From Variovorax sp. Root411 (GTDB lineage Bacteria; Pseudomonadota; Gammaproteobacteria; Burkholderiales; Burkholderiaceae_C), in NCBI RefSeq assembly GCF_001425205.1, contig NZ_LMDW01000005.1:1-64000 (forward strand): a DNA stretch of 64,000 nt, in the 5' to 3' direction. How positions within the stretch are numbered: the first letter of the stretch is position 1; each line of letters opens with the position of its first letter. The notes beneath the pieces were generated by a model. The model saw only the letters and a list, made by a program, of their open reading frames with translations. It was not told the DNA's origin and did not search any database. Both the position numbers and the translations under genes were made by a program. Shown piece after piece: positions 4,672 to 60,120 of this stretch.

Positions 4672-5496
4672 ATGGCCGTCATCAAGATGAAACCCACTTC
4701 GCCGGGCCAACGCGGCGCGGTGAAGATCTCGCGTGACCACCTGTTCAAGGGTGCTCCTCACGCTCCCCTGCTGGAACCCCAGTTCCAGAAGGCCGGCCGC
4801 AACAACAACGGCCACATCACGATCCGTCATCGTGGCGGCGGTGCCAAGCACCACTACCGCGTTGTCGACTTCGTGCGCAACAAGGACGGCATCCCGGCCA
4901 AGGTCGAACGCATCGAGTACGACCCGAACCGCACCGCCCACATCGCTCTGGTCTGCTATGCCGACGGCGAGCGCCGCTACATCATCGCCCCGCGCGGTCT
5001 GGAAGCTGGTGCAACGCTGCTGTCGGGCGCCGAAGCCCCGATCCGCGCCGGCAACACCCTGCCGATCCGCAACATCCCGGTCGGCTCGACGATCCACTGC
5101 ATCGAACTGCAGCCCGGCAAGGGCGCGCAGATCGCGCGTTCGGCCGGTACGTCGGCCACGCTGCTGGCTCGCGAAGGCGTCTACGCCCAGGTCCGCATGC
5201 GTTCGGGTGAGGTGCGCCGCATCCACATCGAATGCCGTGCAACCATCGGCGAAGTGGCCAACGAAGAGCACAGCCTGCGCCAACTCGGCAAGGCCGGTGC
5301 GAAGCGTCACATGGGTATCCGCCCGACCGTTCGCGGCGTGGTGATGAACCCGGTCGACCACCCGCACGGTGGCGGCGAAGGCAAGACTGGCGAAGGCCGC
5401 CATCCTGTCGACCCATGGGGCAATCTGACCAAGGGCTATCGCACCCGTAACAACAAGCGCACGCAGGTCTTCATCGTGTCGCGTCGCAAGAAGTAA
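4672..5496 (+). CDS. rplB: 50S ribosomal protein L2
   Basis: L2 (274 aa, usual length) binds domain IV of 23S rRNA and is needed for subunit association and peptidyl transfer. The conserved [16 protein letters not shown] stretch lies near residue 43, and the C-terminal block [16 protein letters not shown] near residue 223 includes the universally conserved histidine. It starts two bases after the rplW stop. Confidence 0.98.
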
Positions 5497-26053: not shown

Positions 26054-26173
26054 TTGCTCCTTCCCCTCCCGGGGGAAGGCCGGGATGGGGGCAAGCCTTC
26101 GATCAGAAGCCGCGCATTTTCAGAGGCCGTCGTGCCCCCACCCCGGCCCTCCCCCGGAAGGGGAGGGAGAAAT
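26054..26173. repeat. Palindromic repeat family B, copy 1
   Basis: Two arms of about 40 bases (26054-26096 and 26132-26173) are imperfect inverted repeats of each other around a 35-base centre. The arms contain CCCGGGGGAAGG and its complement-like CCTCCCCCGGAAGG. It lies between the AraC and DMT genes. Related copies are at 51859, 55613 and 57394. Confidence 0.8.
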
Positions 26174-51843: not shown

Positions 51844-51858
51844 GCGCGGCTTGCCTTG

Positions 51859-51972
51859 CCCCCTCTCCCCTCGGGGAGAGGGTTGGGGTGAGGGCCGACG
51901 GCGATTGCAAAGGCGGTGCGTATGCAAGCGCTGATGCCCTCACCCTAACCCTCTCCCAAAAGGAGGGGGGAC
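51859..51972. repeat. Palindromic repeat family B, copy 2
   Basis: Arms at 51859-51895 and 51935-51972 are near-perfect inverted repeats (GAGAGGGTTGGGGTGAGGGC against its complement). It lies in the 160 bases between the binding-protein gene and the dehydrogenase gene; nothing else is seen there. It is related to the copies at 26054, 55613 and 57394, though it differs in details. Confidence 0.8.
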
Positions 51973-52003
51973 AGTTACCAAGTCAGGAACATCGAGGAGA
52001 TTG

Positions 52004-53974: not shown

Positions 53975-54502
53975 ATGAAGATTCGTTTGTCCGCCGTCGC
54001 AGCCTGCATCGCGGCCATCGCATGTCCTGCGTTCGCCCTCGACTTCCCTTCGCGCAAACCCGGCCTGTGGGAAATCCAGACCGGGGACGGCACGGGCACG
54101 GGCAAGGGCCCCGGCGCCGGCCACACCATGCAGCAGTGCATCGACGCGGCCAGCGACAAGGCGCTGCGCGACATGGGCCAGGGCATGAGCAAGGACATGT
54201 GTTCGAAGCAGGAGCTGCGTTCCGACGGCGGCAAGCTGGTGATGGACTCGGTCTGCAAGATCGGCAACACGGTCGCCACCTCGCATGCGGTGTTGAGCGG
54301 CGACTTCGGCACGGCCTACCGCATGGAAAGCAAGTCGACCTACAACCCGCCGCTGATGGGCCGTGCAGAGGGCGCGAGCGTCATGGAGGCCAGGTGGATC
54401 GGCCCCTGCAAGGCCGACCAGAAGCCGGGCGACATGGTCATGTCCAACGGCATGAAGATGAACGCGCTCGACATGATGAAAAACCGGCCGAAGAAGCCGT
54501 AG
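53975..54502 (+). CDS. DUF3617-type periplasmic protein
   Basis: A 175-aa exported protein with a signal peptide ending near PAFALDF. The mature protein starts FPSRKPGLWEIQ and has four cysteines, including MQQCID, DMCSKQ, DSVCKIG and GPCKADQ, matching DUF3617. Function unknown. The ATG at 53975 follows GGGAGCTCGCC. Confidence 0.85.
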   Translation: MKIRLSAVAACIAAIACPAFALDFPSRKPGLWEIQTGDGTGTGKGPGAGHTMQQCIDAASDKALRDMGQGMSKDMCSKQELRSDGGKLVMDSVCKIGNTVATSHAVLSGDFGTAYRMESKSTYNPPLMGRAEGASVMEARWIGPCKADQKPGDMVMSNGMKMNALDMMKNRPKKP

Positions 54503-54593
54503 CCCGCCGCACACCGGGTAGGCGCCGGCCCACAGCGCTTTGCGCCTGCCGTGGTGCGGCGGGAAACCGCCGCTGCGCCTACGATGGCGTGCC

Positions 54594-55721
54594 ATGCCCG
54601 CACAGCAGGAAGAAGACCTCCTCGTCGTCGCCCGGCCCGAGGGCCTTTATTGCCCACCCGGCGATTTCTACATCGACCCGTGGCGGCCGGTGGCGCGCGC
54701 CGTCATCACGCATGCGCATTCGGACCATGCGCGCGCCGGGCACGCGCACTACCTGGCCCACACCGACAGCGCCGGCACGCTGCGCGCGCGCCTCGGCAGC
54801 GACATCGATCTGCAGACGCTGGCCTACGGCGAGGCCATTGAGCACCGTGGCGTGCGCGTCTCGCTGCATCCGGCTGGCCATGTGCTGGGCTCGGCGCAGG
54901 TGCGGCTCGAACGTCGCGCTCGCGTGTGGGTGGCCTCGGGCGACTACAAGACCGAACCCGACGGCACCTGCCCGCCCTTCGAGCCCGTGCCTTGTGACAC
55001 CTTCATCACCGAGTCGACCTTTGGCCTGCCGATCTATCGCTGGCCCACGCAGGCCGTGCTGTTCGCGGAGATCGACGCGTGGTGGCGCGCCAATGCGCAG
55101 GCCGGGCGCGCGTCGGTGCTGTTCTGCTATGCCTTCGGCAAGGCGCAGCGCATCCTGCATGGCGTGGATGCGAGCATCGGGCCGATCGTCGTGCACGGGG
55201 CGGTGGAGCCGCTCAATGCGGTGTACCGGGCGGCGGGCGTCTCTTTGCCGCCCACCTTGCGTGCGGATGATGAGGGCGTCGACGCCGCATTGCTGAAGCG
55301 TTCGCTGGTGCTCGCACCGCCATCGGCGCAGGGCTCGCCGTGGATGCGCCGCTTCGGCAACTACGCCGATGCGTTCGCCAGCGGGTGGATGCAGCTGCGC
55401 GGCACGCGCCGCCGAAGAGGCGTGGACCGCGGCTTCGTGATGTCCGACCATGCCGACTGGCCCGGCCTGCAGCAGGCGATTGCAGGCACCGGTGCAGAGC
55501 GCGTGTTCGTCACGCACGGCAGCGTGCAGGTGATGGTGCGGTGGCTTACGGAGAACGGCCTCGATGCGCAGGGCTTCAAGACCGAGTACGGCGATGAAGA
55601 CGATCAGGAAACTTCCTCCTCCTCTGGGGGCGGGGTGGGGAGGGGGCAGGCGGCGCTCGATGGGGACGCTGAAAGCCCCCATCCCAGCCTTCCCCCGGAG
55701 GGGGAAGGAGAAATACCGTGA
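54594..55721 (+). CDS. Ligase-associated MBL-fold exonuclease
   Basis: A 375-aa metallo-beta-lactamase fold nuclease of the ligase-associated group. The metal site HAHSDHARAGH is near residue 40; HPAGHVLGSAQV, GDYKTEPDG and the later VMSDHAD follow. Homologues act with the DNA ligase and helicase encoded next to them in DNA repair. The last 40 or so residues (from about 336) are Gly/Ser/Pro-rich and are translated from repeat B copy 3; they are not part of the fold. The stop overlaps the ligase GTG start by three bases. Confidence 0.93.
   Translation: MPAQQEEDLLVVARPEGLYCPPGDFYIDPWRPVARAVITHAHSDHARAGHAHYLAHTDSAGTLRARLGSDIDLQTLAYGEAIEHRGVRVSLHPAGHVLGSAQVRLERRARVWVASGDYKTEPDGTCPPFEPVPCDTFITESTFGLPIYRWPTQAVLFAEIDAWWRANAQAGRASVLFCYAFGKAQRILHGVDASIGPIVVHGAVEPLNAVYRAAGVSLPPTLRADDEGVDAALLKRSLVLAPPSAQGSPWMRRFGNYADAFASGWMQLRGTRRRRGVDRGFVMSDHADWPGLQQAIAGTGAERVFVTHGSVQVMVRWLTENGLDAQGFKTEYGDEDDQETSSSSGGGVGRGQAALDGDAESPHPSLPPEGEGEIP
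55613..55713. repeat. Palindromic repeat family B, copy 3, in coding sequence
   Basis: Arms at 55613-55650 and 55674-55713 form an imperfect inverted repeat. The whole element is inside the 3' end of the exonuclease frame. Its right end supplies GAAGGAG seven bases before the ligase start. Confidence 0.8.
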
Positions 55722-57373
55722 AAGCGTTTGCCGCGCTTTACCGCGAGCTCGATGCGAGCACGTCTAGCCTCGCCAAGCAGGCGGCGCTGCAGCGCTACCT
55801 GCGCGAAGCCGATGCCGCCGACGCCGCATGGGCCGTCTACTTCCTCGCCGGTGGCAAGCCGCGCCAACTGGTGCCCACCAAGCTCCTGCGCCTGCTCGCG
55901 CAGGAGGCGGCCGGCCTGCCCGAGTGGCTGTTCGACGAAAGCTACGACGCCGTGGGCGACCTCGCCGAGACCATCGCGCTGCTGTTGCCGCCGCCGAGCG
56001 AGGTGCACGATCTCGGGCTCGCGGGTTGGGTCGAGCAGCATCTGCTGCCATTGCGCGACGCCGCGAAGACGGCACCCGAGCAGCTCGCGGACCGGCTGCG
56101 CGCGCAGTGGCGCCAGCTTGCGGCCGAAGAGCGGCTGGTGTACTTCAAGCTCATCACCGGTGCATTCCGCGTGGGCGTGTCGAAGCTGCAGGTGACGCAG
56201 GCGCTCGCCGCGGTCGGCGGCATCGACGCCAAGCGCGTCGCGCAGCGGCTCATGGGCTACACGCACATCGGCGCGCGACCCCGGTCCGATGACTACCGCA
56301 CGCTCATCGCACCCGAGTCGAGCGCCGAACAGGAGCAGAAGACCAGCGGTCAACCGTACCCCTTCTTCCTCGCGCATCCGTTCAACATTCCGCTCGAGCA
56401 GTTCGATGCCGTGCTGGGATCACCGTCCGGCTGGATCGTCGAGTGGAAGTGGGACGGCATCCGCGCGCAGCTCGTGAAGCGCGCGGGCGTGGTGTGGGTC
56501 TGGTCGCGCGGCGAAGAGCTGGTGACGGAGCGCTTCCCCGAGCTTGCCGTGCTCGGTGAGGCGTTGCCCGACGGCACGGTGCTCGACGGCGAAATCGCCG
56601 TGTGGCGCGAAGACCGGGTACAGCCCTTCGCCGAGCTGCAGAAGCGCATCGGCCGCAAGACGCTCGGTGCCAAGTTGCTGCGCGTCATTCCCGTGGTGCT
56701 GCTGGTCTACGACCTCCTCGAATGGGAAGGCCGTGACCTGCGTGCAGTGCCGCAGTCGGAGCGGCGCGTGTTGCTCGATGAACTGGTCACGCGCATGCAG
56801 CATCCTTCGCTGCTGCCGAGCCCGATGCTCACCGGGCTCGACTGGCCCGATCTCGCAAGGCAGCGCGAAGCCGCACGCACCATGGGCGTCGAAGGGATGA
56901 TGCTCAAGCGGCGCGATGCGCAGTACGGCGTGGGCCGCACCAAGGACGTCGGCGTGTGGTGGAAGTGGAAGATCGACCCGCTCAGCATCGACGCGGTGCT
57001 GATCTACGCACAGCGCGGCCACGGCCGGCGCGCGAGCCTCTTCAGCGACTACACCTTCGCGGTGTGGGACGGCCCGCCCGGGCAAGCCGACCGCAAGCTC
57101 GTGCCTTTCGCCAAGGCCTACTCGGGCCTCACCGACGCCGAGATGGCGCGCGTGGACGCGATCATCCGCAAGACCACGGTGGAAAGCTTCGGACCGGTGA
57201 AGAGCGTGAAGCCGACGCTGGTGTTCGAGCTGGGCTTCGAGGGCATCGCGCGCAGCGCGCGGCACAAGAGCGGCATCGCGGTGCGCTTTCCGCGCATGCT
57301 GCGGTGGCGGGAGGACAAGCCGGTGGCGGAGGCGGATACGTTGCAGACGCTCGCTGCGTTGCTTCCCTCATGA
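55718..57373 (+). CDS. ATP-dependent DNA ligase
   Basis: A 551-aa ATP-dependent ligase of the bacterial ligase-associated repair set. The N-terminal DNA-binding domain covers residues 1 to about 205. The adenylated Lys244 is in [11 protein letters not shown], followed by VLDGEIAVW, the [22 protein letters not shown] region and the OB fold. It starts with GTG at 55718 in overlap with the exonuclease stop; its ribosome-binding site lies in repeat B. The chromosome should also have an NAD-dependent LigA elsewhere. The gene is flanked by two repeats of the same family. Confidence 0.95.
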
Positions 57374-60120
57374 CCGACCCACTGCATCCCGAATTTCTTC
57401 CTCCTCTTCCGGGGGAGGGCAGGGGTGGGGGCAAGCGGCGTATCCAAAGTCAGCTGCCTGTCGCAGGCCGCTTGCCCCCATCCCAGCCTTCCCCCGGGAG
57501 GGGAAGGAGCAAATCCAAGGCCGTGAAGGCTGCGCTCGATGCATGGTTTGCCGCGCGCGGGTGGAAGCCTTTCAAGTTCCAGCGCGAGGTGTGGAAAGCT
57601 GTCGCCGAAGGCAGGTCCGGCCTGCTTCACGCGACCACCGGCGCGGGCAAGACCTACGCCGTGTGGCTCGCCGCACTGCAGGCTTTCTCTCAGGCGCGCA
57701 AGGAAGCGGCACGCCCCGCCGCCCAGCCGCTCACCGTGCTGTGGCTCACCCCGATGCGCGCGCTTGCGTCCGATACGCTGCGCGCACTGCAGCAGCCGCT
57801 CGACGCCCTCGGCGCCGAAGTGCATCCATGGAGCGCGGGCGCACGCAGCGGCGACACCTCTTCGTCCGAACGCAGCGCGCAGAACCAGCGCCTGCCCACC
57901 GTGCTCGTCACCACGCCTGAAAGCCTGTCGCTGCTGCTCTCGCGCGCCGATGCCCGCGAAGTGCTCGGCCATGTGCGGATGACCGTCGTCGACGAATGGC
58001 ACGAGCTGCTCGGCAACAAGCGCGGCGTGCAGGTGCAGCTCGCGCTGGCACGGCTCAAGCGCTGGAACCCCGGCCTCGCGATCTGGGGCATGTCGGCCAC
58101 GCTGGGCAACCTGCACGAGGCGATGCATGCGCTGCTGGGCCGTGCGGACGGCGTGCTCGTGCAGGGCCAGGTGCCGAAGAAGCTCGTCATCGATTCGCTG
58201 CTGCCCGGCACCGCCGAGCGCTTTCCCTGGGGCGGTCACCTCGGCCTCACGATGCTGCCGCAGGTGATCGCGGAGATCGCTGCGAGCAAGACCGCATTGG
58301 TCTTCACCAACACGCGCTCGCAGGCCGAGATCTGGTACCAGGCGATGCTCGAGGCCAGGCCCGAGTGGGCGGGCCTCATCGCGCTGCACCACGGCTCGCT
58401 CGACCGCGAGGTGCGCGAGTGGGTCGAGCTGGGCCTCAAGAGCGGCGAGCTGAAGGCGGTGGTCTGCACCTCGAGCCTGGACCTGGGCGTGGACTTCCTG
58501 CCGGTCGAGCGCGTGCTGCAGATCGGCTCGCCCAAGGGCGTGGCGCGGCTGCTGCAGCGCGCGGGTCGTTCGGGTCACGCACCGGGGCGGCCGTCGCGCA
58601 TCACGCTCGTGCCCACGCACAGCGTCGAGATGGTCGAAGGCTCGGCCGCGCGCGCGGCCATTGCGGCGGGGCACATCGAGGCGCGCCATTCGCCGCGCCA
58701 GCCGCTCGACGTGCTGGTGCAGCACCTGGTGACGGTGGCGCTCGGCGGCGGCTTCGTGCCCGAGGACCTGTACGGCGAGGTGCGCGGCACGGCCGCCTAC
58801 GAAGGCCTCTCGCGCGAGAGCTGGCAGTGGTGTCTCGACTTCGTCTCGCAGGGCGGTCCCTCGCTCGCGGCCTACCCGGACTACAAGCGCGCCGTGCCCG
58901 ACACCGAGGGCGTCTGGCGCGTGCCCGATGCGCGGCTCGCGCGGCGGCATCGCACGAACATCGGCACGATCGTGAGCGACGCGAGCATGTCGGTGCAGTA
59001 CCTCGGCGGCTCGAAGATCGGCAGCGTGGAGGAGGGCTTCGTCGCGCGCATGAAGCCCGGCGACTGCTTCCTGTTCGGCGGCCGGCTGCTGGAGCTGGTG
59101 CGCATCCACGAGATGACCGCGTGGGTGCGGCGCGCCAGCGGCAAGCGGGCCGTGGTGCCGCGCTGGAACGGCGGGCGCATGCCGCTGTCGAACACGCTGG
59201 CCGATGCGGTGGTGCAGCAGCTGGCGCTGGCCGGAGAGGGGCGCTACGACTCGCCCGAACTGCAATGCGTGCGGCCGCTGCTCGAGATACAGCAGCAGTG
59301 GTCGGCGCTGCCGACGCCGCAGACGCTGCTGGCAGAAACGCTGGGCACGCGCGAGGGTTCGCACCTGTTCCTCTATCCGTTCGCGGGCCGGCACGTGCAC
59401 CTCGGGCTGGCGAGCCTGCTGGCCTGGCGCGTCGCGCAGCACGAGGCGCGCACCTTTTCCATCGCGGTCAACGACTACGGCTTCGAGTTGCTGAGCGCGA
59501 CCGAGGTCGATTGGGCCGTGCTGCTGCCGCAGGTGCTGAAGCCGCCGGAAGGCGACGCGCCCGAGGCGCTGCTGCACGAGGTGCTGGCCTCGCTCAACGC
59601 GGGCGAACTTGCGCAGCGGCGCTTCCGCGAGATCGCGCGCGTGTCGGGGCTGATCTTCCAGGGCTACCCTGGCGAGAAGCGCAGCAGCAAGCAGCTGCAG
59701 GCCTCGTCCTCGCTGTTCTGGGAGGTGTTCCGCAAGTACGACCCCGGCAACAGGCTGCTGCAGCAGGCCGAGCAGGAGCTGCTCGCGCAGGAACTCGAGA
59801 TCGGCCGTCTGCGCGCCAGCCTCGCGCGCATGGCCACGCAGCAACTCGTGCTGAAGCCGCTCGCGCGGCCGACGCCGTTTTCGTTTCCGCTGATGGTCGA
59901 GCTGTTCCGCGAGAAGCTGTCGAACGAGAACGTGGCCGACCGCATTGCCCGCATGGTCGAGCAACTCGAGAAGGCCGCGGGTGGCGTGCTCACGGCCGGC
60001 GGCGTCGAGCGCGTGAAGGGCACGCTGGCCTTCGGACAGGAAGGCTCGGGCAAACCGGCGAAGCCGCCGGCCCCACGGCGCGAGCGCAGGCAGCCGTCAA
60101 GGCCTTTGCCGCCGCTGTGA
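57370..60120 (+). CDS. Ligase-associated Lhr-like DEXH helicase
   Basis: An SF2 DNA helicase related to Lhr-Core. Walker [12 protein letters not shown] has Lys94; DEWH is at residues 208-211; [21 protein letters not shown] and a winged-helix/Lhr C-terminal domain follow. With ATG 57370 (overlapping the ligase stop, ATGA) the protein has 916 aa, and residues about 9-49 are translated from repeat B copy 4. A GTG at 57523 would give 865 aa, starting just before the helicase domain ([14 protein letters not shown]), and is a fair alternative. It acts with the exonuclease and ligase. Confidence 0.93.
57394..57514. repeat. Palindromic repeat family B, copy 4
   Basis: Arms at 57394-57439 and 57467-57514 are long inverted repeats (GGGGGCAAGCGGC against GCCGCTTGCCCCC at the inner ends) with a 27-base centre. 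It starts 24 bases after the ATG that overlaps the ligase stop and is open in the helicase frame. Confidence 0.82.

Follow-up and report, generated by a model that had tools for sequence, protein, structure and literature searches.

Introduction

Palindromic repeats that are read in frame within protein-coding genes, often genes of DNA repair, are already established. According to the accessible text of PMC3733652, repetitive extragenic palindromic sequences (REPs) tagged with GTAG or CGTC are found in frame in genes, many of which serve replication and repair, including uvrA and the genes of DNA ligase and helicases. The Rickettsia palindromic elements (RPEs) are palindromes of about 150 bp which, as described in the accessible part of PMC10969869, lie in frame in unrelated protein genes. 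Here we describe a family of palindromic repeats from Variovorax sp. Root411, two copies of which are located in an operon encoding a ligase-associated exonuclease, an ATP-dependent DNA ligase and a ligase-associated helicase. The operon lies in a stretch of 64,000 nucleotides (the window) that is part of contig 5 (NZ_LMDW01000005.1) of the 6.06 Mb genome. Comparison of related loci makes it very likely that the two repeats are tolerated in-frame insertions which supply coding sequence and a ribosome-binding site (RBS) motif, rather than a new protein function.

The family resembles the intragenic REPs, as far as the accessible text of PMC3733652 describes them, in being palindromic, multi-copy, often dimeric, in frame and in some cases located at the ends of open reading frames. 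It differs from them in its consensus, which contains neither the GTAG nor the CGTC tag and has the ends TT[GT]CTCC...GGAGCAA. The main text of PMC3733652 does not mention Variovorax. Unlike the work described there, the present analysis compares the frame across relatives, and the repeat adds an RBS motif at an overlapping gene junction. The likeness to the RPEs is one of description (PMC10969869, accessible part), not of sequence, and Variovorax is another, high-GC genus; unlike the RPEs as described there, its family also occurs at gene boundaries and shows tandem in-frame amplification up to seven copies. With the translationally coupled systems presented in the accessible part of PMC6728339 the locus shares stop/start overlaps and a Shine-Dalgarno (SD) sequence inside the upstream gene, the difference being that the SD sequence here belongs to a dispersed repeat. 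By analogy, the Variovorax family appears to work like an intragenic REP or RPE. As far as searched, the new aspects are the family itself, the keeping of the frame demonstrated by comparison, the double role at an overlap, the amplification in tandem and the fact that unrelated repeats occupy the same sites. The literature matches listed contain no description of the family, most subscription papers being outside the search, and a search for Variovorax together with REPIN gave only an unrelated match among those listed.

The repair operon and its two repeats

The three genes of the operon are located on the forward strand. The exonuclease gene (54594-55721) encodes 375 residues and matches TIGR04122 with 497.6 bits, the model spanning residues 11-335. 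It is followed by the ligase gene (55718-57373; TIGR04120, 711.8 bits), which starts with GTG, and by the DEXH helicase gene (57370-60120; TIGR04121, 1104.9 bits), which starts with ATG and whose model match begins at residue 56. All three matches are above the curated NCBIfam cut-offs. As read from the sequence, the exonuclease stop overlaps the ligase start in GTGA (55718-55721) and the ligase stop overlaps the helicase start in ATGA (57370-57373). The nearest named relatives of the ligase belong to Variovorax strains, the top one (L001) with 96% identity.

The original prediction placed two repeats, its copies 3 and 4, inside the exonuclease and helicase frames. This was confirmed by the open reading frame coordinates and by matches to R1, a covariance model built from 17 copies elsewhere in the genome with the two operon copies excluded. 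Copy 3 (55609-55713, 77.5 bits) is a doublet of two imperfect hairpins and encodes exonuclease residues 339-374. Its 3′ arm carries GAAGGAG (55704-55710), an SD-like motif of the ligase located 7 nt 5′ of the GTG. Copy 4 (57394-57512, 116 bits) is free of stops and encodes helicase residues 9-48. Both copies are oriented with the genes, and the exonuclease and helicase models stop short of the ends that the repeats encode.

Conservation of the reading frame

Relatives were represented by the best 80 of 466 orthologous loci, which together with the window make 81 loci, and both junctions were measured in them. A half-element was called at a score of at least 16, the top score of 1620 shuffles being 14. 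Loci with a ligase identity of at least 90% are referred to as close loci (n = 24, window included). The right half of the element is present at 28 of the 81 exonuclease-ligase junctions, and in every one of these the exonuclease frame is open through the element to the 4-nt ligase overlap, which is found in 73 of the 81 loci overall. Since the frame runs to the overlap in all 28, their 13 distinct junction lengths are all equal modulo 3. At least 12 length changes were thus all frame-keeping (p ~2e-6 if a change keeps the frame with a chance of 1/3, ~2e-4 with 1/2). Among the close loci the exonuclease copy is present in 19 and absent in five. The exonuclease tails of these five are different and shorter, and none of them resembles the repeat tail, as the derivation of the C-terminus from the repeat would lead one to expect.

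The helicase copy is likewise present in 19 of the 24 close loci, always in frame, and cleanly absent in five. The helicase ATG overlaps the ligase stop in 18 of the 19 element-bearing loci, the exception being L018. All 18 measured helicase lengths are equal modulo 3, with at least seven changes (p ~5e-4 at 1/3, ~8e-3 at 1/2). The copy has been amplified in tandem and in frame to three copies in L009 and L014 and to seven in L033; the tandem units of 156 and 159 nt are multiples of 3. The original prediction that the gene overlaps outlived the insertions thus held at all 28 element-bearing exonuclease-ligase junctions and for 18 of the 19 helicases. No ATG, GTG or TTG occurs between the element and the helicase domain in 17 of the 19 element-bearing loci, the window and L001 being the exceptions. 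Barring a rarer start codon, some of the element must therefore be read in these 17 helicases, and on this comparison the helicase element is very probably coding, at least in part.

Some observations concern the ligase in between. L018 (6560-6800) lacks the ligase C-terminus, and its ligase frame continues into the repeat of the helicase, which itself remains in frame; the same ligase has the insert KAETSPEGEGKVQ in place of EDRVQ of the window, possibly another repeat remnant. The ligases of L012, L016 and L074 are 24 nt longer than that of the window.

Both copies are present in 17 of the close loci and neither in three (L007, L008 and L012). A quick tree built from 36 loci requires six or more changes for either presence pattern; the copies have thus often been gained and lost, or exchanged.

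An open frame was considered as a proof of coding and rejected. Among 56 copies outside the five coding sites, 42, 44 and 39 are free of stops in the three sense frames, respectively. Since most copies at these other places are stop-free in any one sense frame, an open frame alone is weak evidence, and the preservation of the frame across relatives is the stronger evidence of coding. At two control sites with an untranslated element, frame-changing lengths were found in 2 of 9 and 1 of 14 cases. The encoded peptide behaves differently from the frame. Differences at codon positions 1/2/3 are 0.18/0.22/0.21 in the helicase extension (15 loci) and 0.06/0.05/0.27 over ligase codons 1-300 (24 loci), with intermediate values of 0.15/0.19/0.28 in the exonuclease tail (18 loci). 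In the helicase the frame is kept and the peptide is not, which looks like the pattern expected of a tolerated linker.

The repeat as a putative ribosome-binding site

The claim that the repeats supply both coding sequence and an SD-like motif is supported, the frame being kept across relatives. Both halves of the element are recognisable at 15 of the 28 element-bearing exonuclease-ligase junctions. The right half occurs without the left at 13, and the left without the right at none. The aligned right half stops 7 nt 5′ of the ligase start in 18 of the 28. Judged by these alignments, the motif-bearing right half (GGAAGGAG) survives better than the left half at this junction. Nine of the 13 junctions lacking a recognisable left half are 56-104 nt long, shorter than the other four.

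A similar arrangement is found upstream of another gene (G000 C16:581846), where a pattern search of 28 chosen relatives detected the element in 13. In all 13, 10 nt separate GGAG from ATG, and in three of them the element is reduced to a 25-nt hairpin which retains this spacing. Genome-wide, a predicted start lies at most 7 nt from 10 of the 122 element ends, and nine of these have GGAG; this is a raw count based on predicted starts. Of the 45 ligase junctions that lack the element, only 17 yielded an SD-like motif in a simple search; an SD sequence may therefore not be essential there. In L154, L156, L158 and L170 the element end is followed by CACC or GACC and then ATG, so that the predicted start is 4 nt past the element.

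The repeat family in the genome

R1 gave 121 two-strand matches in the genome, which correspond to at least 61 places by a hand count in which weaker copies may be missed. A half-element search gave 51 matches, compared with none in a reversed control. Match lengths are 102-125 nt with a single exception of 67 nt. The element is built of two inverted imperfect hairpins, forming a doublet, and is present in many dispersed copies. All 17 aligned copies end with GGAGCAA, whose final A was supplied from a separate look at the copies and not from the 17-copy alignment, and most start with TT[GT]CTCC, the near inverse of this end. Two types are found among the 61 places: 46 score closer to the operon type and the other 15 to a related one with CCCTCTCCC arms. 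At an intergenic site (site A, G000 C16:760603; L210-L237) relatives hold one repeat type, the other, or none. The presence of two copies in one operon was considered as a sign of targeting and set aside: by simple arithmetic, about one pair as close as the operon copies is expected among 61 random copies.

Apart from the operon, the window contains a third copy of the same family on the reverse strand (R1 match, 26054-26172), where a coding scan found no gene reading through on both sides, and a reverse-strand copy (51856-51973) that R1-type scoring places closer to the second type. A search of the window region 54500-58000 against Rfam gave no match at the gathering score; the 17 matches up to E 1 were all to microRNA models.

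A REP-associated tyrosine transposase (RAYT) was considered as the mobiliser and rejected. The single Y1_Tnp gene of the genome (L111), a candidate RAYT, and eight from other genomes have no element nearby. At these nine loci (L111 and the best eight others of 59 matches) no half-element within about 1.5 kb scores more than 12, a value equalled or exceeded by the best of 30 L111 shuffles. The presence of Y1_Tnp does not track the element, a match being found in 17 of 17 element-free genomes and lacking in three of 44 element-bearing ones. With neither GTAG nor CGTC tags in the consensus and no transposase that could be connected with the family here, it was not filed as a REPIN.

Same family and unrelated repeats in other genes

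The same element lies in frame in three more genes, which encode a UvrA-like protein, a ClpB-family AAA protein (presumably ClpV) and a molybdopterin/cytochrome dehydrogenase, which we take to be of the nicotinate type. These genes were compared in 28 chosen relatives. The uvrA-like gene contains the element in 6 of the 28 testable genomes, own genome included, and in all six it is in frame. Going by the peptide it encodes, the element at the dehydrogenase site is in frame in 24 of 27. For the AAA gene, 16 of 26 have a half-element that reaches this same threshold, in most cases a shortened one, and 15 of these 16 are in frame.

Unrelated repeats were also observed at such sites. In L080, a Hydrogenophaga metagenome-assembled genome (MAG), the exonuclease C-terminus before position 5001 consists of three units of an unrelated inverted-repeat family and ends in ATGA. 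This family (SVRAEPVEA...STSSGRT) has 73 matches in its MAG and none in the control. The AAA-gene linker of L335 and L336, elsewhere the site of the palindrome, encodes in frame a different repeat-like peptide, VRTEPVEV...STSSARTD, which looks similar to the L080 repeat peptide.

Proposed origin and alternative explanations

We propose that the element, a palindromic doublet present in many copies and probably non-autonomous, entered the repair operon at two boundaries between its translationally overlapping genes and now lies in frame there as the C-terminal tail of the exonuclease and the N-terminal extension of the helicase. The element DNA is GC-rich and stop-poor in every sense frame, with outward-facing GGAG at its outer ends; an insertion of suitable length would therefore be tolerated. 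It may be read as a Pro/Gly-rich linker and can supply the RBS of the next gene. Selection would since have kept the frame and the junction half with GGAAGGAG, and not the peptide encoded in the helicase. The identity of the element, its in-frame reading to the overlaps, the survival of the motif half and the drift of the peptide are findings of the sequence comparison; from them we infer the mode of insertion, translation in vivo, the use of GGAAGGAG by ribosomes and the neutrality of the peptide.

Several observations weigh against this reading. At both junctions, length changes were counted as distinct lengths and not mapped on a tree. Among the 13 junctions that lack a recognisable left half, four retain a length of 107-131 nt; there this half has diverged and was not deleted. 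One right-half call (L036) sits at the threshold. The control sites are small samples, and 13 of 14 lengths at one of them are equal modulo 3. A GTG is found inside the right half of the element in 9 of the 17 helicase loci without a later start and in none of the other eight; at these nine only part of the element need therefore be read. A helicase free of the repeat could be initiated at GTG 57523 in the window. The element is broken in 3 of 27 dehydrogenase genes and out of frame in 1 of 16 AAA genes. Were the proteins and their overlap all that mattered, the frame would be preserved as well, and the tail therefore need do nothing. In the dehydrogenase genes of L316, L318 and L320 the element at this site is out of frame and the molybdopterin and cytochrome parts lie in different frames.

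The GTG in the window (57523-57525, forward strand), which is in frame 3′ of the repeat and follows a GGAG by 13 nt, raises the alternative that the helicase repeat is an untranslated 5′ leader and the helicase starts after it. The five repeat-free close loci begin with M-NK-[AS]-VK at the equivalent place, and the accessible text of PMC3733652 cautions that N-terminal REPs may in certain species be mostly extragenic. A start after the repeat is available only in the window and L001 of the 19 element-bearing loci, however, and the 18 measured helicase lengths are all in frame with the ATGA start, which makes this alternative unlikely. A helicase start only at 57523, the outcome named as contrary to the original prediction, is thus possible in these two loci and unlikely as a general rule, a later start being absent from the other 17. 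Co-option of the repeat-encoded peptides for a protein function, for example binding of DNA or a partner, is very unlikely. The encoded segments are basic and rich in Arg, Gly and Ser-Pro, they have been amplified in tandem (three copies in L009/L014, seven in L033), and the exonuclease tail has a weak third-position excess; but the helicase extension is without codon-position bias and its copy is cleanly absent from five of the 24 close loci. The AlphaFold model of helicase residues 1-350, computed with four sequences, was too poor to use (pLDDT 37.8).

The third alternative concerns regulation and holds that a hairpin at the exonuclease-ligase junction hides the ligase RBS, that translation of the exonuclease opens it and that the elements set the enzyme ratios. 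Folding of 55600-55735 is predicted to give -83.5 kcal/mol (z -5.0) and places the SD sequence within the stem; in the 15 full-element loci the median unpaired probability of the SD sequence is 0.20. Initiation dependent on upstream translation is a general mechanism already described, as presented in the accessible part of PMC6728339. Against such a hairpin counts that the left arm is unrecognisable in 13 of 28 junctions and that no element is present at this junction in five of the 24 close loci. Among loci that have a motif, the corresponding median is 0.38 where the right half is alone (11 of 13) and 0.32 where the element is absent (17 of 45), a small contrast that rests on one folding model; hairpin-gated coupling is therefore a possibility, and a doubtful one. 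The original prediction that the repeats may set the ratio of the three enzymes is not supported, each copy being missing in five of the 24 close loci and the helicase peptide drifting. Somewhat speculatively, the tolerated insertion could be extended to a portable gene-boundary cassette, stop-poor and with an outward RBS at each end, which settles at overlapping or close genes, lengthens their proteins and takes over the next initiation while the operon stays coupled; in the repair operon, a full hairpin would make the ligase strictly dependent on exonuclease translation.

Implications

The coding use of the palindromic repeat is judged here by comparison, with filled and empty alleles in close relatives, and not by annotation. 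The case separates the keeping of a frame from the keeping of a peptide. From the better survival of the right half it seems that half a repeat can be kept on account of the ribosome-binding site it carries. The discussion in the accessible text of PMC3733652 asks whether replication and repair genes are hit by REPs merely by chance, and the repair operon and the uvrA-like gene of Variovorax are added to the list of genes behind this question.

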